Source: Micromonospora sp. NBC_01813 | GTDB taxonomy: Bacteria > Actinomycetota > Actinomycetes > Mycobacteriales > Micromonosporaceae | NCBI RefSeq assembly: GCF_035917335.1 | Contig: NZ_CP109067.1 | Coordinates: 5,393,001-5,457,000, forward strand | DNA: 64,000 nucleotides | Direction: 5' to 3' | Part shown: positions 3,071 to 32,069 of the stretch, in pieces | How positions within the stretch are numbered: position 1 is the first letter of the stretch | How the letters are laid out: each line of letters starts with the position of its first letter | Made by a program: the position numbers and the translations under genes | Notes under the pieces: generated by a model | Seen by the model: the letters and a program-made list of their open reading frames with translations, nothing else | What the model was told of the DNA's origin: nothing | Databases searched by the model: none

Positions 3071-3915
3071 AGTGGCTCCTTAGCACGTTTAGCGATCATG
3101 GCGACGGACTCCTCTGGCGGGAGCGCCGCCGCCCGTATGTGATCGAAAATAAAGATGTACTTGCGTAGCTCTTCAGATTTCTCGAGGAAGAGCCCACCGG
3201 TGGCGTTCTCGGCGTAGACCACATCCGCGTCGCTCGGCTCCGGGAAGTCGAGGATCGTGAACGTTCCGTCCATGCCCGCGTGCGATCCCACCTCGAACGG
3301 TAGGACCTGCAGCGTGACGTTCGGCATGTCCGCCGCTTCGACGAGGCGCAGGAGCTGTGCGCGCATGACCGCGTCGCCGCCGACCGGTCGACTCAGCACC
3401 GCTTCATCGAGCACCGCCCATACATCGATCTGATCTTCCTGAGTCAGTAACGACTGACGCCTCAGTCGGACATGGACGCGGTGGTCGACTTCTTCGTCGG
3501 TGATGTCGGGACGGGCCGCCCGGATCATCGCCTGGGCATAGTCGGCCGTCTGCAGCAGCCCTGGCACGACCTGCTGCTCGTACGCGCGGACCGACCGGGC
3601 AGCGGCCTCGAAACCGACATAGGCGCCGGTGAGCACCGTCGAGTACGGATGCCACCAGCCCTTCTGCCGCGCCTCCCGGGCAATCTGCACCAGCTCGTCG
3701 GCCTCGGTGCCGGTCACGCCGTAGATCTCCAGCATGTCCCGGACATCGCGGGGAGTCGCGGTGGTGTGCCCGGTCTCGATCCGGGAAACCTTCGAAGCGG
3801 AGCACTCCAGACGCTCCGCAACCACATCGATCGTGACACCTGCGGCGTCCCGCCGCCGGCGCAACTCGGCGCCGAGACGGCGGCGCCGGACAGTCGGACT
3901 TCGGCGCTCGGTCAC
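3040..3915 (-). CDS. XRE-family HTH regulator with DUF5753 domain
   Basis: A 291-residue DNA-binding protein. The helix-turn-helix is at about residues 12-70 (LGAELRRRRDAAGVTIDVVA, then CSASKVSRIETGH). The remainder is a DUF5753 domain, with QKGWWHPYS, YEQQVVPGLLQTADYA, RLRRQSLLT and VLPFEVGSHAGMDGTF all seen in order. It is paired with the downstream DUF397 gene, a WhiJ-like arrangement, and probably represses a promoter near its partner. Immediately upstream is a 425-base region without genes that should hold its promoter. Confidence 0.9.
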   Translation of the reverse strand: MTERRSPTVRRRRLGAELRRRRDAAGVTIDVVAERLECSASKVSRIETGHTTATPRDVRDMLEIYGVTGTEADELVQIAREARQKGWWHPYSTVLTGAYVGFEAAARSVRAYEQQVVPGLLQTADYAQAMIRAARPDITDEEVDHRVHVRLRRQSLLTQEDQIDVWAVLDEAVLSRPVGGDAVMRAQLLRLVEAADMPNVTLQVLPFEVGSHAGMDGTFTILDFPEPSDADVVYAENATGGLFLEKSEELRKYIFIFDHIRAAALPPEESVAMIAKRAKEPLWTSRLRDSG

Positions 3916-5549: not shown

Positions 5550-5676
5550 GGCCCGTCCTCTCCGTACCAACCGGCGTGACATTCGGTAGGGGCTCAAGAT
5601 ATCCAGCCGGGGAGCGCCCGGCGTCGCCGACGCCCGCGAGTCGCCCCGCGCCGCCCCGACCGCTACAGTGCCCGGC

Positions 5677-6858
5677 ATGGCCGTACGAGGCTGGGGAAGA
5701 TCGGTCGCGACGGCGACTGGCATAGCTGCCGGCGTGGGCGCCGCGCAGCTCGGCCTGGGCTATGGCCTGGGCATTGTCGCGTGGCTACCCTCCGTGGACA
5801 GCGGAGGTGAGGCCGCCTGGGTAGCCAGCCTTGCCTGGGCCACCTGGATCGCGGCGACGTCGGTGGTCCTCGGGGCGGTCGTCGCCGACCGGCTCGCACC
5901 AACGAGTTCCGAGGCGGTCACTACGAGTGACTCCAGTTGGCAACCGGAGAACCTGATCACCGCCAGCCTGTGGCGGATCGCACTCGCCGCGGCGGCGGCG
6001 ATCGGCGGAATGCTCACGGTGGCGTTGATCGCCGTCCCGGCCCGTGGTGCGGCCCGGGCCGACACCTTCTCGCCCCAGACCATCGCCGCCGGGTACGCGA
6101 TGGTCGGCGCGGTCGTCGGGCTGTTCATGGCGATCTGGGCGGTCGCCTCCCGGGCAGCGGCGAACAACGCGATCGCGACCGTCGGCTGGCTCTGGCTGCT
6201 CGCCGTGATAGCCGTGATCGACTCGGTCATCTCCGGTCCCGGTCTGACCAGCGCCCAGCTGGGGGTCTGGCAGATAACCGCAGACAGCGAGCGCTACTGG
6301 TTCCGCAACATCTACTGGCCCGGCGCGACCCTGTCCCTCGGGTCGGCGTTCATCATCGGCGCGTTCTCGGCCTGGCCGGCGGCTCGTGACGCCCGCCGCC
6401 GGGTGGGCGCGGCGATCTCCGGCGGGGTCGGCCCGGTCCTGATCGCCGCCGCGTACTTCCTGGCCGCGCCCCGGCTGGTCGGCCCGCGCGCGGAGCAACT
6501 GTCGGCGCATCTTCTCGCGCCGTACGCGGTGATCGCCGGCTTGGCCGGGTCGGTTCTGGTGACCGCGATCGCGCAGCGGCTGGAGGTCTCCCGGCGGCAT
6601 CGCGACCAGATCTCAAGCGACGACACCGGGGCCGACGCTGGGGACGCCAGCCCGGCGGCGGAGCCCGCTGGCGGGACCGCCGGCAACGGCAACGGCAGCG
6701 ATGTGGCCGTGCCGAGCCAGCCGACCGCCGGTTCCGGCGCGGACGCACCGGCCCGTGGCACGGCCGCGGTCGCCGGCACTCGTGGCACGGCTGCGGTCGC
6801 CCGCAGCGGCCGGGCCAAGGCCAAGCCGCCGAAGTCCGGCGGCACCGCCGGCGCCTGA
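5677..6858 (+). CDS. Polytopic membrane protein, unknown function
   Basis: A 393-residue protein. The ATG at 5677 is preferred, and a GTG three codons earlier is possible. About eight hydrophobic helices span residues 10-310, for example GLGYGLGIVAWL, IAATSVVLGAVVADRLA, LTVALIAVPARG, MVGAVVGLFMAIWAVASRAA and VIAGLAGSVLVTAIA. The last 80 residues are a Gly/Ala/Asp-rich, probably cytoplasmic disordered tail ending in Lys/Pro-rich AKAKPPKSGG. It is divergent from the PASTA gene, with starts 127 bases apart, so the two may share regulation and both act at the envelope. No family was recognised. Confidence 0.65.
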   Translation: MAVRGWGRSVATATGIAAGVGAAQLGLGYGLGIVAWLPSVDSGGEAAWVASLAWATWIAATSVVLGAVVADRLAPTSSEAVTTSDSSWQPENLITASLWRIALAAAAAIGGMLTVALIAVPARGAARADTFSPQTIAAGYAMVGAVVGLFMAIWAVASRAAANNAIATVGWLWLLAVIAVIDSVISGPGLTSAQLGVWQITADSERYWFRNIYWPGATLSLGSAFIIGAFSAWPAARDARRRVGAAISGGVGPVLIAAAYFLAAPRLVGPRAEQLSAHLLAPYAVIAGLAGSVLVTAIAQRLEVSRRHRDQISSDDTGADAGDASPAAEPAGGTAGNGNGSDVAVPSQPTAGSGADAPARGTAAVAGTRGTAAVARSGRAKAKPPKSGGTAGA

Positions 6859-23946: not shown

Positions 23947-25967
23947 GGCAGCACGCCGGTACGGACTCCCCCGCGCCGGTCGGCACCGCGGTCACCTGGC
24001 GGCTCACTGGACTGCCCGCGCCCCACCCCGCCGAACGACTGGGTCGCGCGGTCGGGCTACGGGTGTTGCGGATCCCCGGCACCGGCCGGGCGCTCGTCCT
24101 CGCCGGCAGCGTGGACCGGCTGCGCGACCTGACCTTCCGACCCGCCGCCGCGGCGCCGGTGCGGGCCGTCACCGTGGTCGTCGCCTGGTGGCGCCCCCCG
24201 CGACGCGGGTGGGCGGGGACCGTCGGCCTCCTGCCCGGGCTGCGCCGGCACCGGGTCGGTCTGCCCCGGCTACGTCGGGGCGCGGCCACCGTCCGGATCG
24301 CGCTGACCACGCCGGTGCCGCTGCGCGATGCGGTACGGGCGGCACTGCCCGCCCTGGACGGGTCCCGGCCGTTGCCGTCGCCGGGCAGTCCGGACGTCAC
24401 CGCCACCCGGGCCGACCTGGCGTACCTGCCGGCGAACGCGACCATCATCACCGCCACCGCTGGCGGCGAACTCGCGGCCCGCGACGAGATCCGCGCCCAC
24501 GACCTGGTACTCGCCGGGCCGGGCAGCGGCGACCCGCTGCCAGCCGCCGTGGCTGGTCGGCCGGAACAGGCTGGTCGGCCGTACGGCACCGTTCTGGTGG
24601 GCTCCGGGCACACCGTCGCCGGCCCAGACGGCAGGGACCTGGTGCTGATCGACGCCGAGCGGATCAACCCGCGTGGTCGGCTGATGGCCGCGTACCGGCC
24701 GCAGGCACCCGAGGTCATGCTGGAATTCGCCCGCGACCGTTCGGGTGGCGGCTTCCGGGGCGGCCCGGCCAGCGGGCTGACCCTGCGCGGAGCATTGGCC
24801 GGCCCGGGTCTGGACGCGGCGGCCGTGGCCGCGCTGCGACACGTCCGGGCCGTGCACTGCCGGTTGGTGCCCGGTGAGCATCCCGCGCAGACCGCCGGGC
24901 TGCTGGTGCAGCTCGCCGCGACCGGGGTGGTGCTGCACGCCCCGCTGCTGCCGCCGGCCGTCGCCGACCTGCTCGATCCGAAGCTGCGGGCGCTGGTCAG
25001 CGAGCCGCCGCCGACGGCGGAGACCGACGCCGCACCGGACGACCCGGCCGGTGCCGCGCTGGCCGATGCCGCGCTGGCCGGTGCCGGAGCCGCGCTGGCG
25101 ACCGAGGCGCGCAGCGTGCGGCAACGCCGTGCCGCGCTGCGCGGACACGCCGCCGGGTTGCGGCTACCCGGCCTCGCCACCGGCGGGCTGCCGCAGCTCG
25201 GCCAGCCGCCGTCGGTCAGCGCGATCCTGATCACCCGCCGGCCGGAGCTGGTCGCTCCGGCACTGGCCGCGATCACCGCCCAGACCTACCCGGAGATGGA
25301 GATCATCCTGGGGCTGCACGGCATCGACCTGCCGGAGGCCGCCCGGGTGGCGCTCTCCGAATGCGGCCGGCCGTTCGAGGTGGTGCACCTGGCGGAGTCG
25401 GTCGACTTCGGCGCCGCCCTCGGTGCGGCCACCCGCCGGGCCCGGGGCACCCTGGTCACGAAGTTCGACGACGACGACAGCTACGGCGTGGAACACGTCT
25501 GGGATCTCGTCCTGGCCCGGCACTACTCGGGTGCCACCCTGGTCGGCAAGGGCGCTGAGCTGGTCTATCTGGAAAGTCAGGGCGTCCTGCTGCGCCGCCG
25601 GTCCGGCATCTCCGAGGCGTACGGCGATGTGGTTGCCGGTGGCACGATGCTGCTCGCCAAGGGCGATCTGGAGGCGGTCGGCGGCTGGCGGCCGGTGCCC
25701 CGCTCGGTCGACCTCGGGCTGATCGAGCGGCTACGGGCGGCCGGCGCGACCATCTACCGCACCCACTCGCTCGGCTACGTCTACCACCGGCGGCCGGCCG
25801 GCCACACCTGGGATCCGGGCGAGGCGTACTTCGTGGACAGCGCGTACGCCCGGTGGCCCGGGGTCCCACCCGACGCGATGGCCGACGAGGTCAGACCACC
25901 ATCGACGGCAGCGGCCAGCGACGCAGCCGGTGCGGCAGCCAGACCAGCCGGTCGCCCACCTTCGTGA
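23943..25967 (+). CDS. Glycosyltransferase with long uncharacterised N-terminal domain
   Basis: A 674-residue protein. Residues 1-400 are Arg/Ala/Pro-rich and match no family I recognise. The GT2-like domain occupies about 415-650: SAILITRRPELVAPALAAIT, AQTYPEMEIILGLHG, then TKFDDDDSYGVEHVWDLVLA (metal-binding Asp cluster) and SLGYVYHRRPAGHTWD. It is coupled to the preceding GT2 gene. The last 26 codons overlap the 3' end of the minus-strand DUF5825 gene, and the Ala/Pro-rich tail there is probably dispensable. The N-terminal half may recognise the polymer acceptor. That is a guess. Confidence 0.75.
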   Translation: MRQHAGTDSPAPVGTAVTWRLTGLPAPHPAERLGRAVGLRVLRIPGTGRALVLAGSVDRLRDLTFRPAAAAPVRAVTVVVAWWRPPRRGWAGTVGLLPGLRRHRVGLPRLRRGAATVRIALTTPVPLRDAVRAALPALDGSRPLPSPGSPDVTATRADLAYLPANATIITATAGGELAARDEIRAHDLVLAGPGSGDPLPAAVAGRPEQAGRPYGTVLVGSGHTVAGPDGRDLVLIDAERINPRGRLMAAYRPQAPEVMLEFARDRSGGGFRGGPASGLTLRGALAGPGLDAAAVAALRHVRAVHCRLVPGEHPAQTAGLLVQLAATGVVLHAPLLPPAVADLLDPKLRALVSEPPPTAETDAAPDDPAGAALADAALAGAGAALATEARSVRQRRAALRGHAAGLRLPGLATGGLPQLGQPPSVSAILITRRPELVAPALAAITAQTYPEMEIILGLHGIDLPEAARVALSECGRPFEVVHLAESVDFGAALGAATRRARGTLVTKFDDDDSYGVEHVWDLVLARHYSGATLVGKGAELVYLESQGVLLRRRSGISEAYGDVVAGGTMLLAKGDLEAVGGWRPVPRSVDLGLIERLRAAGATIYRTHSLGYVYHRRPAGHTWDPGEAYFVDSAYARWPGVPPDAMADEVRPPSTAAASDAAGAAARPAGRPPS

Positions 25968-26580
25968 CCAGTCCCTCCTCGCCGAAATCGCGGGCGATGT
26001 CGAGATCCACGGCGGTGACCTCGGCACCGTCGAGAAGTTGGGCGAGCACCGCCAGGTAGGCGGGATCGTCGATGGTCAGCAGGTTCAGCTGGCCGGCGCG
26101 GCGGTCCCGGACCTGCACGAACCCGGGCCCTCGGCGGTACGTGCACTTGTCGAAGTAGAACGCGGCCCGCCAGGCGGATGCCACCGCCGCCGGATCTTCG
26201 GCACCGTCGCCGGCCGTTTCGACCCGCTTCGGTGGCCGCAGGTGGCTGTACACCCGCCACAGTTCGTCGTCACCGCCGGGTAGCCGCAGCGACCAGTCCA
26301 CCTCGATGGCGTAGCTGGTCAGCTCCCGGACCAGCACCAGTCGGCGGACGGCGTCGGCCGACTCGGCCGGGCCGGCCACGGTGAGGTCCACGACGCCGGG
26401 CAGCGCCACCTTGCGTACTCCGGCGTCGAGCCAGCCCGCGACGGTGTCGGCGACCGGTCCGGTCACCTCCGCCGGACCCAGGTCGATACCGGGGATGTCG
26501 GCGACCGCCGGGTCGTGGTCGCGGTGCAGGTGTACGGCGACCGGCCGGCCGGTCGGCGCCTCGAGATAGGTGCTGGTCAA
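25891..26580 (-). CDS. DUF5825 family protein, radical-SAM RiPP cluster partner
   Basis: A 229-residue protein with a TTG start at 26580, supported by CAGGAGTT at proper spacing and by the 13-base gap after the radical SAM stop. It contains VRELTSYAIEVDWSLRLPG, WRAAFYFDKCTYRRGPGFVQ, VRDRRAGQLNLLTIDDP and the ending GDRLVWLPHRLRRWPLP. I recognise this as the DUF5825 type that accompanies B12-binding radical SAM RiPP maturases. Its role is unknown. It could bind the precursor leader or act as a chaperone for the maturase. The 3' end overlaps the convergent glycosyltransferase gene by 77 bases. Confidence 0.7.
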   Translation of the reverse strand: MTSTYLEAPTGRPVAVHLHRDHDPAVADIPGIDLGPAEVTGPVADTVAGWLDAGVRKVALPGVVDLTVAGPAESADAVRRLVLVRELTSYAIEVDWSLRLPGGDDELWRVYSHLRPPKRVETAGDGAEDPAAVASAWRAAFYFDKCTYRRGPGFVQVRDRRAGQLNLLTIDDPAYLAVLAQLLDGAEVTAVDLDIARDFGEEGLVTKVGDRLVWLPHRLRRWPLPSMVV

Positions 26581-26593
26581 CGCGGAACTCCTG

Positions 26594-28567
26594 TCAGACG
26601 GCGGTGAGCGCGGGCTCGGGTGCGGCGACGCCGGTCACCGCGGTCGCCCGCTCGGCGGCCGCTGCCTGGGCGGCATCGGACTCGGCGGACGCGGACTCGG
26701 CCGCGGCCCGCTCCTGGTGCAGATGGTCGATGCGGATCAGTTCCTGGTTCATCGCCCGGGGCGCGATCTGGATGAACTGGTCGGCGTCGCCGAAGACGAT
26801 GCCGAGTTCGCGCCAGTGGGCCAGCAACGCGGCGACCCGCTCCGACGACTCGTTGATCCGGCGGGCCAACGAGTCGACGCTGTGCGGCTGGTCCAGTTGT
26901 CGGAAGGCGGCGAGCTCCACCGGATCGGTCAACCGCAGGACGTGCCAGTCGTAGTGCCGCCGCTGGCTGACCAGCACGATCTCGTGGCCGAGGTCGTGGT
27001 GGGTAAGCCGGCTGCGGGCGTACTCGTGCTGCCATTGGGTGACGGCCCGGTCGAGCGCCTCGGCGGTCGGCTCGTCGATGCCCTGCGTCGGGGTGTCGAA
27101 GATGTACGCCAGGTCCATCAGTTCGGATTCGGGCAGGTCGTAGATGAGCCGGTACTGGGCGGCCGGCCGCAGGTCGGTGAAGCCGAGCGCCGGGTTGACG
27201 AAGTACGGACTGAAGCGTTCGATGGCGATCCGGGTGCTGCCGTCGGGCGGGCAGAGGTGGTGCAGGGCCGGCATCTGGTCCATCACCGACTGGTAGTCGG
27301 CGTCGGTCTCGCCGGGGAACCCGAACAGGTAGTTCCAGGCGATGGTGATGCCGCTGGTCTCCGCGTCACGCAGCATCCGCACGTTGAGGCAGCCGGTCAC
27401 CCCCTTGTCCATGATCTTGAGCACCCGGCTGTTCAGGTTCTCGATGCCGGGTTGGACGCTGACCAGACCGGCGTCGGCGAGCGCCTGCACCTGCGGGCCT
27501 CGCATGTTCGACTTGATCTCGTACTGCAGCCGCATGTCGTAGTCGGACTCGGCCAGCCGGGGCAGCAGCGAGGTCACGTAGCTCATGTCGAGGATGTTGT
27601 CGACGACGAACATGTCCAGCACCTGGTGGCGCTCGACCAGACCGACGATCTCTTCGAAGAACCGGCCAGGATGCTTGCTGCGGAACTGCATGAACGATCC
27701 GTTGAGCCCGCAGAAGGTGCAGTGGTGCTTCTCGCCCCACCAGCAGCCGCGGGCGCCCTCCACCACCAGCCGGGGTTCGACCCAGTGGTTGGCCCGCGAG
27801 CTGGCGAGTCGTTCGAAGTAGCCGGCGTAGTCCGGGCTGACGATCTCGGCCGGCGGCAGCGGCGTGGTGCTCATCGGGTTGGCCACGTGCCGGCCGTCCG
27901 GGGTGGCCCAGCACAGGCCCTCGATACCGGCCAGGTCGGGTGCGCCGCCGGCCTCGTTCAGCGCGGTGACCAGCTTCGGGAACGCGGCCTCGCCCTCACC
28001 GCGTACCACGAAGTCGATGAAGGAGAAGTTGCGGTGCATGGCCGCGCCCTGCTCGCCGTCGCAGTTGGCGCCGCCGAGCACGGTGCGGATCCGCGGGTCG
28101 AGCCGCTTCACCGCGCGGGCGGTGGCCAGCGCGGCGGCGTTCTGCTGGAACGTCGAGGTGAACCCGACGACGTCCGGTGCCCGCTCGACGATTCGGGCGG
28201 CGACCTCGGCGACGAAGTCGGGCACCATCCGGTGCAGTTCCAGGTTGCGTTTCAGGTCGCGCTCGGACATCTGACCCTGGACGCGGCTGGTGAACTCGTG
28301 CACCCGCCACTCTGGATCGTCGTAGAGGGCGGAGGAGAAGACCCAGTCGCCGCACCCGGAGAAGTAGGTGAAGAGCGAATAGTAGTAGTAGTCGCCCAGC
28401 CCGAAGTCGGTGCGATCGACGACCCAGTCGACGAAGTCGAGGTTGGCGTGCATGGCTTCGACCTGCGCGTCCGGCACCTTCTGGCGGACGCTGTTGGTGA
28501 GGATGCCCAACGCCAGCGACGGGACATCGATCGATGACCACGGCATGTTGACCAGCAGAATCCGCAT
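26594..28567 (-). CDS. RiPP maturation radical SAM C-methyltransferase (B12-binding)
   Basis: A 657-residue enzyme starting MRILLVNMPWSSIDVPSLAL after GGAAGGG. The N-terminal 190 residues form a cobalamin-binding-like Rossmann domain (ERAPDVVGFTSTFQQN, TVLGGANCDGEQG). The radical SAM core begins at about 270 with CWWGEKHHCTFCGLNG, the CX7CX2C variant of the 4Fe-4S motif typical of the ocin-type RiPP maturase family. IENLNSRVLKIMDKG and WNYLFGFPGETDADY complete the barrel. Members methylate unactivated carbons of precursor peptides using methylcobalamin. The likely substrate is the 33-residue peptide encoded 103 bases upstream. Confidence 0.88.
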   Translation of the reverse strand: MRILLVNMPWSSIDVPSLALGILTNSVRQKVPDAQVEAMHANLDFVDWVVDRTDFGLGDYYYYSLFTYFSGCGDWVFSSALYDDPEWRVHEFTSRVQGQMSERDLKRNLELHRMVPDFVAEVAARIVERAPDVVGFTSTFQQNAAALATARAVKRLDPRIRTVLGGANCDGEQGAAMHRNFSFIDFVVRGEGEAAFPKLVTALNEAGGAPDLAGIEGLCWATPDGRHVANPMSTTPLPPAEIVSPDYAGYFERLASSRANHWVEPRLVVEGARGCWWGEKHHCTFCGLNGSFMQFRSKHPGRFFEEIVGLVERHQVLDMFVVDNILDMSYVTSLLPRLAESDYDMRLQYEIKSNMRGPQVQALADAGLVSVQPGIENLNSRVLKIMDKGVTGCLNVRMLRDAETSGITIAWNYLFGFPGETDADYQSVMDQMPALHHLCPPDGSTRIAIERFSPYFVNPALGFTDLRPAAQYRLIYDLPESELMDLAYIFDTPTQGIDEPTAEALDRAVTQWQHEYARSRLTHHDLGHEIVLVSQRRHYDWHVLRLTDPVELAAFRQLDQPHSVDSLARRINESSERVAALLAHWRELGIVFGDADQFIQIAPRAMNQELIRIDHLHQERAAAESASAESDAAQAAAAERATAVTGVAAPEPALTAV

Positions 28568-28607
28568 GTGCCCTTCCATTTCAGTAGGACTCGCCATTTG
28601 GTGGGAT

Positions 28608-28654
28608 GGAGGCGGTCGGTAGCGCCGACAGACAGCGGTGGTCCGCCCGCCTCC
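28608..28654 (-). promoter_or_regulatory. Nested hairpins between precursor and maturase genes
   Basis: An outer 8-bp stem (28608-28615 with 28647-28654) encloses an inner hairpin (28615-28619 with 28625-28629) in the 103-base gap. On the minus strand this could partly terminate or protect the precursor transcript, giving more peptide than enzyme. The outer and inner stems share base 28615, so they may alternate. Confidence 0.4.
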
Positions 28655-28670
28655 ACCCCGTACGACCAGA

Positions 28671-28772
28671 TCAGAACTTGATCTTGACCGTGACCGTGAC
28701 CTGGATGCCCGCGCTGCGAAGCTGGTCGCGGTTGCCGTTGATCGGGTCGTTCTCGACAACGTTCTTCCGCAT
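28671..28772 (-). CDS. Candidate RiPP precursor peptide, 33 residues
   Basis: A short gene between the S9 peptidase and the radical SAM gene. The ATG at 28772 follows GAGAGGAGGT at ideal distance, the strongest ribosome site in the cluster. The peptide begins MRKNVVENDP, has a central Asn/Asp/Arg-rich segment ending LRSAG, and closes with IQVTVTVKIKF before TGA. The tail alternates Ile/Val/Phe with Thr/Lys/Gln, is free of Cys, and offers several beta-branched residues suited to radical C-methylation. A plausible leader/core boundary is after SAG. I know of no named precursor family with this tail. Its role as substrate is inferred from position. Confidence 0.75.
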   Translation of the reverse strand: MRKNVVENDPINGNRDQLRSAGIQVTVTVKIKF

Positions 28773-28827
28773 GCCGTTCACCTCCTCTCGAATGGACGAT
28801 GGACTTGCCAACGTGCGACGGATCGGG

Positions 28828-30753
28828 TCAGCCGACCGGCCGGGCCATGGCCAGCGCGACCGGGGTTCCCTCCTCCTGCACGCCGTCGAAGTGCCGCTGC
28901 ATGAACAGCAGCACGGTCTGCATCAGCGCCAGATGGCTCCGTGCGTCGAAGTCGTCGTGCCCGGCCCGCCGCCGAACCAGCTGATGCGGAATCCGCCGGG
29001 CGGCGAGCAGACCGGCGTACCGTTCCACCGGCGCCGGCGGGCACCGCACGTCGTCACTGGAGACGGCGAGCAGCACCGGCGCCCGGACCTGGTCGACGTA
29101 GCTGGCCGGCGACGACCGGGCGTACGCCTGCGGCACCTGTCCGGGGGTGCCGCCGAAAAGCAGCACGTCCAACGCCTGGACCGCCGGTGAGGCGGCCTGG
29201 AAGGCCGCGACGTAGTCGGCGATCGGGTTGATCGCCACCCCCAGCCGCCACAGCTGCGGCTGCACGCCGAGGGCGAGCAGCGTCAGGTAGCCGCCCCACG
29301 AGGTGCCCCACAGGGCGACCCGGCCGGCTTCGATGGTGCCGGCGGCGACCAGCTGCTCGCGAACCGCCGCCAGATCCGCGACCTGGGTCAGGCCCACCCC
29401 GTCGCTGAAGTCGTTGCGCCAGGCCGAGCCGTAGCCGCTGGACCCCCGGTAGTTGACCCGCACCACCGCGCACCCGGTGCTGACCAGGACCTCCACCAGC
29501 GGGTCGTACGCGTCCCGGGCGTGCTGCGACGGCCCACCATGGACCAGAAAGACGGCCGGATGGGTGGCCCGGCCGTCGTTCGGGGTGGCCAGCAGCACGT
29601 GAATCCGACCACCCGGCCCGGCCACCCACAGCTCCTGCCGCTGGTAGTCGTCCACCGGAGCCACCGCCGCCGCATCCAGTTCGGCACCACCGTCAGGCAG
29701 CCGCACCCCGCGCGCCGACCGCAGCTGCGGCGGCGTCACCGAATCCGTCCAGATGTAGACGACATCGCCGTCCGGCCAGACCGCCGCGTCGAGCACGCTG
29801 CCCGCCGGGGTCGGCGACACCACACTGGTACGCGAGGTCAGGTCGGCCTCGTGCAGGATCGTCCGCGCGTACCGGTCCTGGCGGATCAGGATCCGCCGAC
29901 CGTCCGGGTACCAACTCGCGGTGATCTCGGTGTCGAACCAGCACCATTCGTGCACCGTCAACCCGTCATCCCGGGTCCAGGTCGCCGGGCAGTACCGGCC
30001 GTCGGACTCCACCACGAGCAGCAGCCGGGGTTCGCCGCCGCCATTGCCGTTGCCGCCATTGCCGTTGCCGCCATTGCCGCCGCCGCTGCCGTTGCCGCCG
30101 CCGCCTCGGTTACCGCTGGGCGCGAAGCCGAGCGCCCAGATCCGTCGGTCCGGTCCGCCGGCCACCTGCCCGACCGCCTCGGTGTCGCCGTCCGGTGACC
30201 CAGGCACGGCGAGGACGGTCACCGCGTCCGGGGCGGCCGGATCGGTGCCGACAGCGGCGAGACGCCCGGTCGGATCCAGGTCCACCAGGTACGCGTACCC
30301 GGCGATCCGGGTCACTTCGGTGACCCGCCCGGACGGCGACCGCCGGTGCAGGGTCATGCCGTCGTCGTCGGCGAGACCGACCAGGGCGGTGCCGTCGGCG
30401 GCCATCGCGATCCCGGCGTGCCGGGCCGGCTCCACCCCCGGCAGCGCGGGCGCGGAAACCACGCCGTGCGCCGGCCGATCGGCGGCGGAACCGTCGGGAA
30501 AATCGCGGGTACGCCAGACACCCACCCCGGCCAGGTCGTCGTCGAACCACCACACGGTCTCGCCGTCCGGGTCCAGGGCCGCCCGGATGGTCCCGGTGTC
30601 CCGGTCGGTGACCTGCGTCAGCGTGTCGGACCGCCGATCCCAGGCCAGGATCTGGCAACGGCCGTCGGCATCACCGACGTACACCAACCGATGGGGTGCG
30701 TGCTCGGCGACGACCGGCAACGCCGGGTAGAACAGCCGGTACTCGCGGCTCAT
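28828..30753 (-). CDS. S9 family prolyl oligopeptidase-type serine peptidase
   Basis: A 641-residue protein starting MSREYRLFYPALPVVAE after GGAGGTAC. Residues 1-390 form an N-terminal beta-propeller-like region with many Asp/Gly turns, interrupted by a Gly/Asn low-complexity loop (about residues 213-245). The alpha/beta-hydrolase domain has VFLVHGGPSQHARDAYDPLV, NYRGSSGYGSAWRNDF, the nucleophile GTSWGGY (Ser about 483), SSDDVRCPP (Asp about 566) and RAGHDDFD (His about 598). No signal peptide is seen, so it acts in the cytoplasm. In this cluster it is the likely leader peptidase or trimming enzyme for the modified peptide. Its start overlaps the exporter stop by 4 bases. Confidence 0.85.
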   Translation of the reverse strand: MSREYRLFYPALPVVAEHAPHRLVYVGDADGRCQILAWDRRSDTLTQVTDRDTGTIRAALDPDGETVWWFDDDLAGVGVWRTRDFPDGSAADRPAHGVVSAPALPGVEPARHAGIAMAADGTALVGLADDDGMTLHRRSPSGRVTEVTRIAGYAYLVDLDPTGRLAAVGTDPAAPDAVTVLAVPGSPDGDTEAVGQVAGGPDRRIWALGFAPSGNRGGGGNGSGGGNGGNGNGGNGNGGGEPRLLLVVESDGRYCPATWTRDDGLTVHEWCWFDTEITASWYPDGRRILIRQDRYARTILHEADLTSRTSVVSPTPAGSVLDAAVWPDGDVVYIWTDSVTPPQLRSARGVRLPDGGAELDAAAVAPVDDYQRQELWVAGPGGRIHVLLATPNDGRATHPAVFLVHGGPSQHARDAYDPLVEVLVSTGCAVVRVNYRGSSGYGSAWRNDFSDGVGLTQVADLAAVREQLVAAGTIEAGRVALWGTSWGGYLTLLALGVQPQLWRLGVAINPIADYVAAFQAASPAVQALDVLLFGGTPGQVPQAYARSSPASYVDQVRAPVLLAVSSDDVRCPPAPVERYAGLLAARRIPHQLVRRRAGHDDFDARSHLALMQTVLLFMQRHFDGVQEEGTPVALAMARPVG

Positions 30754-32069
30754 CGACGTACCTCCGCTGCCTCTGGATCGGTAGGCGCATGCTCTGTCTG
30801 CGCTGGATCGGCTGGTGCGGGATCGTCCGGTGGCTCTTCCGCTCCGGCGCGCAGTTGCCGCAGGTTGACGGTGGTGTAGCCAGCGAGCAGGGCGAGCAGC
30901 GCGGCGAAGATCAGCGCCACCGTCGACGGGCTGTACCAGGCGACGAGCAGGCCGGCGAGCAACGGGGCCGGGGTCTGCAGCACCTCGCCGGCGGTGCCCA
31001 TCACCGTGCCGACCCGGCCCTGCAGTTCGTCCGGGGTCAGCGCGATCACCCGGGACTGGAAGATCACTCCGAGCAGCGGGCTGAGCAGGAAGACCAGACC
31101 GAACAGCAGGCCGTACGTCCAGGTCTGCCGGGCCTGCGACATGGCGACGACCAGCGCCACCATCGCCCAGGACGCGACGACGATGACGGTCATCGGTCGG
31201 ACCCGGCTGAACACGGCGGGGGCGGCCAGCGCTCCGGTGAGACCGCCGACGCTGGCGACGGTGAGAATCAACCCGATCGACGCTGCCGGCGCACCCTGCT
31301 GACCTGCGGTCAAAATGGCGTAGTAGATGAGCGCACCGAAAGTAAAATTGATGCCCGCTGCCCAGATGGTGACGAATCGCAGGAACGGCTGCTGCCACAC
31401 AAACCGCAGGCCATCGCGCAGATCAGCGAGGAAAGATGTCCGTTCGGTGCGGGTCGGCGTGAGATCGGTACGGATCGCCGAGACCAGGCAGGCGGACACC
31501 ACGTAGGAGACCGCATCCACCAGGAACGGCACCCACCGCCCTATCTGATAGAGAACGCCACCGAACAGCGGGCCCACGATCTGCACGGCGTGATTGCGTG
31601 CCTCCAGCCGCGACAATGCTTTCTTGTCGTCGGCGGGGAGCACCCGGCGGATGGATCCGGCACCAGCGGCTTCGTAACCGCTCTGCGCGAGACCCTCCAC
31701 GAATGCCGCACCGGCGAGCACCGCCAGGGTGGCGGCACCGGTGGCGACCCCGACGAACAGTCCGGCCATCACGACGGCGGCCACCAGCAGCGAAACCACC
31801 ATCATCTGCTTTCGCGGCAGCCGGTCGGCCAGTACGCCGGCCACCGGGGCCGCGACCAGCCGGCCGGCCAGGGCCAGTGCGCCGACCAGGCCCGCGGCCG
31901 CCGGCGATCCGGTGACCGCCAAGGTCACCAGCGGGAAGACGATCCCCGACGTTTGCGAACCGAGCTGATCGACCGCTCCGGCGATCCAGTACAGCCGGAA
32001 GTCTCTCTTTCGGGTTACTTCAGCTGGCGTCGGACCCGACATCGAGTCAGCTGACATCAGATTGGCCAC
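30750..32069 (-). CDS. MFS transporter, probable exporter of the cluster product
   Basis: A 439-residue membrane protein with about 12 helices. The GTG at 32069 is used, and ATG codons 4 and 9 positions in are alternatives. The MFS-type loop 2-3 motif is GVLADRLPRKQMMVVSLLV, and the N-terminus FRLYWIAGAVDQLGSQTSGI is like MFS_3/enterobactin-exporter type drug efflux proteins. A hydrophilic Pro/Glu/Asp tail follows the last helix. It is the first gene of the minus-strand RiPP operon and its stop overlaps the peptidase start (ATGA). Export or self-resistance is the expected role. Confidence 0.85.
   Translation of the reverse strand: MANLMSADSMSGPTPAEVTRKRDFRLYWIAGAVDQLGSQTSGIVFPLVTLAVTGSPAAAGLVGALALAGRLVAAPVAGVLADRLPRKQMMVVSLLVAAVVMAGLFVGVATGAATLAVLAGAAFVEGLAQSGYEAAGAGSIRRVLPADDKKALSRLEARNHAVQIVGPLFGGVLYQIGRWVPFLVDAVSYVVSACLVSAIRTDLTPTRTERTSFLADLRDGLRFVWQQPFLRFVTIWAAGINFTFGALIYYAILTAGQQGAPAASIGLILTVASVGGLTGALAAPAVFSRVRPMTVIVVASWAMVALVVAMSQARQTWTYGLLFGLVFLLSPLLGVIFQSRVIALTPDELQGRVGTVMGTAGEVLQTPAPLLAGLLVAWYSPSTVALIFAALLALLAGYTTVNLRQLRAGAEEPPDDPAPADPAQTEHAPTDPEAAEVRR

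Follow-up and report, generated by a model that had tools for sequence, protein, structure and literature searches.

The window analyzed here, a 64,000-nucleotide stretch of the Micromonospora sp. NBC_01813 genome, contains five genes on the minus strand in the order MFS exporter, S9 protease, short peptide, B12 radical SAM C-methyltransferase (TIGR03975), and DUF5825 protein (Table 1). Their shared strand and their spacing suggest that they form one operon. Family matches were obtained for four of the five genes, the exception being the short peptide, which matched no family in Pfam and NCBIfam searches.

Table 1. Features of the candidate RiPP operon, listed in the direction of transcription (positions refer to the window).
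Feature	Position	Strand	Basis or remark
MFS exporter	30750..32069 (GTG start assumed; stop included)	-	family match
S9 family serine protease, probable leader peptidase	28828..30753	-	Peptidase_S9; triad by motif
Ribosome binding site GAGAGGAGGTGA	28778..28789	-	duplex energy to anti-Shine-Dalgarno
Precursor peptide gene (candidate)	28671..28772	-	MRKNVVENDPINGNRDQLRSAGIQVTVTVKIKF; leader about 1-19, core about 20-33 (boundary a guess)
GC-rich hairpin, 13-bp outer stem, no T run	28603..28659	-	predicted fold
B12-binding radical SAM RiPP C-methyltransferase	26594..28567 (stop included)	-	TIGR03975
DUF5825 partner protein	25891..26580 (TTG start; stop included)	-	DUF5825 profile

Reading the minus strand from 28772 down to 28671 gives 33 codons and a stop, translating to MRKNVVENDPINGNRDQLRSAGIQVTVTVKIKF; the coordinates proposed in the first-pass annotation are correct, the strand is minus, and the plus strand encodes a different sequence at this place. 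The peptide contains no Cys, and its amphipathic core has one Phe and two Lys. The strictly alternating, Cys-free tail described earlier was found as claimed, the final 11 residues switching between hydrophobic and polar at every step. The window has 1154 stop-to-stop frames of 20 codons or longer, and such a perfect 11-residue alternating end was unique to the precursor among them. A second convincing copy was absent from the organism's own genome, in which the next matches had E-values of 0.43 and 2.7. The peptide had also been placed directly before the maturase, and indeed 103 nt separate it from the start of the radical SAM gene.

The radical SAM protein carries B12-binding and Radical_SAM domains and scored 623.6 bits against TIGR03975, 'RiPP maturation radical SAM C-methyltransferase' (cut-off 281.85). 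The DUF5825 protein reached 222.8 bits (cut-off 25) and the Peptidase_S9 domain of the protease 115.2 bits. By sequence, the best solved relative of the radical SAM protein was the methyltransferase TokK, with a weak match (35.5 bits) covering residues 119-426. TokK performs sequential methylation in carbapenem biosynthesis; its substrate is a small molecule, unlike the peptide substrate expected here. No paper came up in a full-text search combining 'RiPP maturation radical SAM' and 'Micromonospora'.

When ribosome sites were scored as the duplex energy with a typed anti-Shine-Dalgarno sequence, the precursor site reached -20.2 kcal/mol, compared with -10.9 for the S9 gene, -8.5 for the radical SAM gene, -8.5 for the DUF5825 gene (TTG start), and -3.9 for the MFS gene (GTG start assumed). 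The precursor site is the best of the operon, as originally stated, and among 3000 random 22-mers from the window there was no equally strong one.

Related loci were fetched with the radical SAM protein, and the best 80 of 513 stretches encoding a relative were compared. A precursor with the leader pattern lay upstream of the radical SAM gene in 73 of these 80 loci, and two further loci (L044 and L068) had variant-leader precursors that were read from the frames. No precursor was seen in the frames upstream of the radical SAM gene at L064 and L099, and in three loci the precursor region is incomplete (Ns in the gap at L033, a contig edge at L060 and L080). In the same best 80 of 513 loci, DUF5825 was found in 79, S9 in 73 (not found in seven), and MFS in 70 (not found in ten). 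The order MFS-S9-radical SAM-DUF5825 on one strand was observed in 69 of them, 66 of which had a pattern precursor. Among the loci missing S9 or MFS, a contig edge cuts L041, L060, L080, and L083, while L026, L072, and L074 are uncut. These three are Streptomyces clusters with radical SAM and DUF5825 genes and no S9 or MFS match, and their precursors lack the RKP junction described below (for example ..EYQTGMRLIDIPIPAVRE). At L115 (genome G690), the radical SAM match is split in two, which suggests a frame break or an assembly error; the precursor ORF there is intact.

Within the family, 354 genomes were compared. A close radical SAM ortholog (at least 72% identity) occurred in 14, counting that of the window, and all 14 had a window-type precursor. 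A scan of 394 genomes sampled from the class detected DUF5825 itself in 16, with scores above the cut-off in 15. The first-pass annotation had named a lack of conservation beside other DUF5825 loci as one outcome that would refute the peptide; there the peptide is kept, its leader staying constant and its core varying. Judged by this conservation, it is not a chance reading frame.

Alignment bore out the expected leader conservation and core variability. Across ten 33-residue window-type forms, residue changes occurred in 0 of 19 leader columns and in 8 of 14 core columns, and three columns of the first 19 codons showed silent changes only. Four 32-residue forms, excluded from this count, vary in the leader at a few places, among them VV replaced by II and N by S. 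In pairwise comparisons with the window, Fisher tests gave p values of 0.0083, 0.0278, 0.0278, and 0.1 for the four most diverged forms and 1.0 for the remaining five pairs, which have too few changes to be informative; the leader/core contrast depends on few substitutions. Full alternation (10 of 10 steps) was found in eight of nine distinct window-type cores, and the core of L113 alternates at 9 of 10 steps. Seven other cores were also scored: three alternate fully (S. clavuligerus and two Streptomyces), the L127 core and one L132 core do so at 9 of 10 steps, and in the other L132 core and the Streptomyces core GVGVVVYL, alternation was not beyond chance. Such a combination, an invariant leader joined to a core that varies within a pattern, is expected of a RiPP precursor.

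Two precursor designs emerged from these loci. Streptomyces-type precursors (70 in 69 loci) mostly consist of MQKDIIHNDPLAGDEENRKP, an alternating core such as GIGITVTVPF, an R, and an acidic follower. A Pro junction (NR(K/R/S)P or SRKP) precedes the core in 64 of the 70, and an acidic follower after [FILY]R was matched in 65 of the 70. Window-type precursors begin MRK(N/S)(V/I)(V/I)ENDPI(N/S)GNR and end KIKF, KVSF, TVKF, SVSF, or SIKF. The window precursor lacks the Streptomyces-type Pro junction, having LRSAG in its place, and also lacks the acidic follower, the ORF stopping at Phe33. The window-type endings suggest that Phe is the natural end of the core. As the core runs to the stop codon in this clade, follower removal would not be needed. 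Pro before the core is absent throughout the window's clade except at L113 (LRSKPSVTISVSIKF), where KP precedes the core; L113 links the two designs in this respect.

In a radical SAM tree of 48 rows chosen from the loci, five of which are partial outgroup proteins, the window's group and the Streptomyces group were sisters (98/97 for the pair). The window's group includes L114, at which no precursor was seen. Two follower-less loci, L127 from a genome of the window's family and L132 from a Streptomyces sp. NBC_01450 plasmid with a tandem precursor pair, fell outside both groups on weakly supported forks. Their precursors resemble the window's type in having a KxVVxN(D/N)P leader and an ORF ending in KF or SF; they differ in lying outside the window/Streptomyces clade and in one L132 core that does not alternate. 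Because these follower-less precursors lie outside, on weak forks, gain and loss of the follower are both compatible with the tree. Upstream of the radical SAM genes of L116-L126 and L128, a second precursor type of the family, MKRR..(N/H)DPI.., was observed, whose tail is longer, not strictly alternating, and mostly includes a ..GAVIVKMLLDL-like stretch; the radical SAM proteins beside it are about 54-58% identical to that of the window.

For the region between precursor and radical SAM gene, a GC-rich hairpin is predicted; the folding energy is -49.2 kcal/mol across 107 nt (z -2.85), reached by one of 200 shuffles. Downstream of the precursor stop, over at most 80 nt, z fell below -2 in 17 of 18 window-type rows, several of which are near-copies of each other, and in 62 of 70 Streptomyces-type rows, compared with 3 of 79 control stretches within the radical SAM gene. 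The stem sequences vary among relatives while the hairpin persists. A short ORF followed by such a hairpin in most loci could be read as a regulatory leader, that is, an attenuator of the radical SAM gene, rather than as a precursor. We consider this highly improbable: the amino acid sequence is conserved in the leader and patterned in the core, the maturase belongs to a family of peptide modifiers, the window hairpin has no T run, and the hairpin is not place-specific, as the 80 nt upstream of the precursor are structured too (z below -2 in 37 of 73 loci). This upstream structure may be another hairpin, lying between the S9 and precursor genes. Under the precursor reading, the hairpin after the gene could instead boost precursor mRNA relative to enzyme mRNA, as the predicted folds would allow.

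Clavusporins are C-methylated surfactant RiPPs that, according to the title of the report, are peptide surfactants promoting bacterial development (Zhang, Li, Overton, Seyedsayamdost, Nat Chem Biol 2025, 21, 1069). A B12 radical SAM/DUF5825 pair homologous to that of the window is reported to C-methylate in their biosynthesis, and their leader is reported to be cut off by MpcP, a prolyl oligopeptidase (JACS 2026, PMC12951456). As far as these reports describe them, clavusporins thus share with the window the enzyme pair and an S9-type leader protease. On the S. clavuligerus plasmid pSCL4, the genes for MFS, an alpha/beta hydrolase, radical SAM, and DUF5825 follow one another in this order, and an unlisted ORF, MQKDVIHNDPLAGDEENRKPSVGITITVPFRNAEDADED, precedes the radical SAM gene. 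The pSCL4 gene table, incomplete by its own description, lists no gene at this place. From the search, which covered pSCL4, we infer that this ORF is the clavusporin precursor. The pSCL4 operon, taken as that of clavusporin, also shares the MFS gene and the short precursor with the window; both precursors have a KD/KN-[VI][VI]-x-NDP leader and an alternating core, and the two radical SAM proteins are about 62% identical. In contrast to the clavusporin type, the window precursor ends at the core Phe, lacking an acidic follower; its core contains Lys and is not preceded by Pro. Given the TIGR03975 B12 radical SAM gene, the adjacent DUF5825 gene, the upstream precursor with the shared leader motif, and an S9-type peptidase whose leader cutting is putative, the system is, in terms of its gene content and sequences, a follower-less sister of the clavusporin-type operon. 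The kind is already known from the clavusporin work, and the window holds a shortened relative. The clavusporin link, the Streptomyces form with a follower, and the hairpin after the gene are new beyond the first-pass annotation.

Taken together, these observations make it very probable that this radical SAM protein and DUF5825 act on the ORF product as a RiPP precursor. The tail had been said to suit repeated radical methylation and beta-strand assembly. The former is well supported by homology because the enzyme matches TIGR03975 and the homologous clavusporin pair is reported to C-methylate; beta-strand assembly can be put forward as a conjecture. It is also conceivable that the precursor undergoes a crosslink or another radical reaction instead of repeated C-methylation, as a different B12 radical SAM enzyme, PbsB, is reported to crosslink peptides. 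This is improbable for an enzyme of subfamily TIGR03975 accompanied by DUF5825, the pairing whose homolog is reported to C-methylate, acting on a core with one Phe and no Cys.

The S9 protein gave its best solved matches, by sequence, to acylamino-acid-releasing enzymes (91.1 bits), and prolyl oligopeptidase 7c72 ranked later among the solved S9 matches (77.4 bits). The triad assigned by motif, Ser485, Asp568, and His599, was invariant across 15 aligned S9 proteins. The surroundings of the catalytic His read AGH(D/E)DFD in the four window-type proteins and GHDG(Y/H) in the eleven Streptomyces-type proteins, a difference compatible with an altered cleavage preference in a clade mostly without Pro. 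Since the window precursor has neither Pro before the core nor an acidic follower, its cleavage site and product end may differ from those of clavusporin; the need of the protease for Pro is unsure because 6 of 70 Streptomyces-type precursors also lack the junction pattern. At positions 30037-30116 of the window, imperfect GCC/ATT-type tandem repeats encode a Gly/Asn-rich insert in the S9 protease, the only one of its kind among the 15 aligned proteins.

A working model can be assembled in which all of the chemistry (methylation, product, and activity) is drawn from homology, and in which we infer which sites are methylated, where cleavage occurs, how the product assembles, and what it does. 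The near-perfect ribosome site and the strong predicted hairpin after the gene would allow the precursor to be translated in excess. Its leader, MRKNVVENDP..., would recruit the B12 radical SAM protein and DUF5825, as its conservation and the reported clavusporin pair suggest. The radical SAM protein would then methylate the alternating Val/Ile/Thr core at unactivated carbons, and the S9 protease would remove the leader, perhaps between LRSA and GIQVTVTVKIKF, a guess from the alignment with the Streptomyces RKP/G junction. Finally, the MFS protein would export a linear amphipathic beta-strand peptide acting at surfaces.

The product could also conceivably be antimicrobial instead of acting as a surfactant or in development, the window core being amphipathic with two Lys and an MFS exporter being present. 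We regard this reading as rather unlikely, as the reported relatives are called peptide surfactants promoting bacterial development and no dedicated immunity gene was recognized among the five genes. For the surfactant or developmental reading, the abstract of the clavusporin paper is said to describe peptides that lower surface tension and aid Streptomyces development, and an operon widespread in actinomycetes. We tentatively propose, as a possibility that is far from assured, that Micromonosporaceae make a distinct class of amphipathic beta-strand peptides, polymethylated and partly cationic, with a core reaching up to the stop codon, and that these may form surface films. Their role may be other than raising aerial hyphae because, to our knowledge, Micromonospora generally form none.

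With this locus, a recently described kind of C-methylated peptide extends to Micromonosporaceae, where it takes a minimal form: the leader, some 19 residues long, is highly conserved within the clade, and the ORF finishes with the core. It raises the question of the role of such a peptide outside Streptomyces. A small follower-less substrate would be convenient for studying leader recognition by DUF5825 and the B12 enzyme, and useful for studying methyl placement on unactivated carbons. In two loci, tandem precursors were observed before one radical SAM gene, at 5599-5718 and 5785-5898 in L061 and at 3566-3652 and 3833-3928 in L132.
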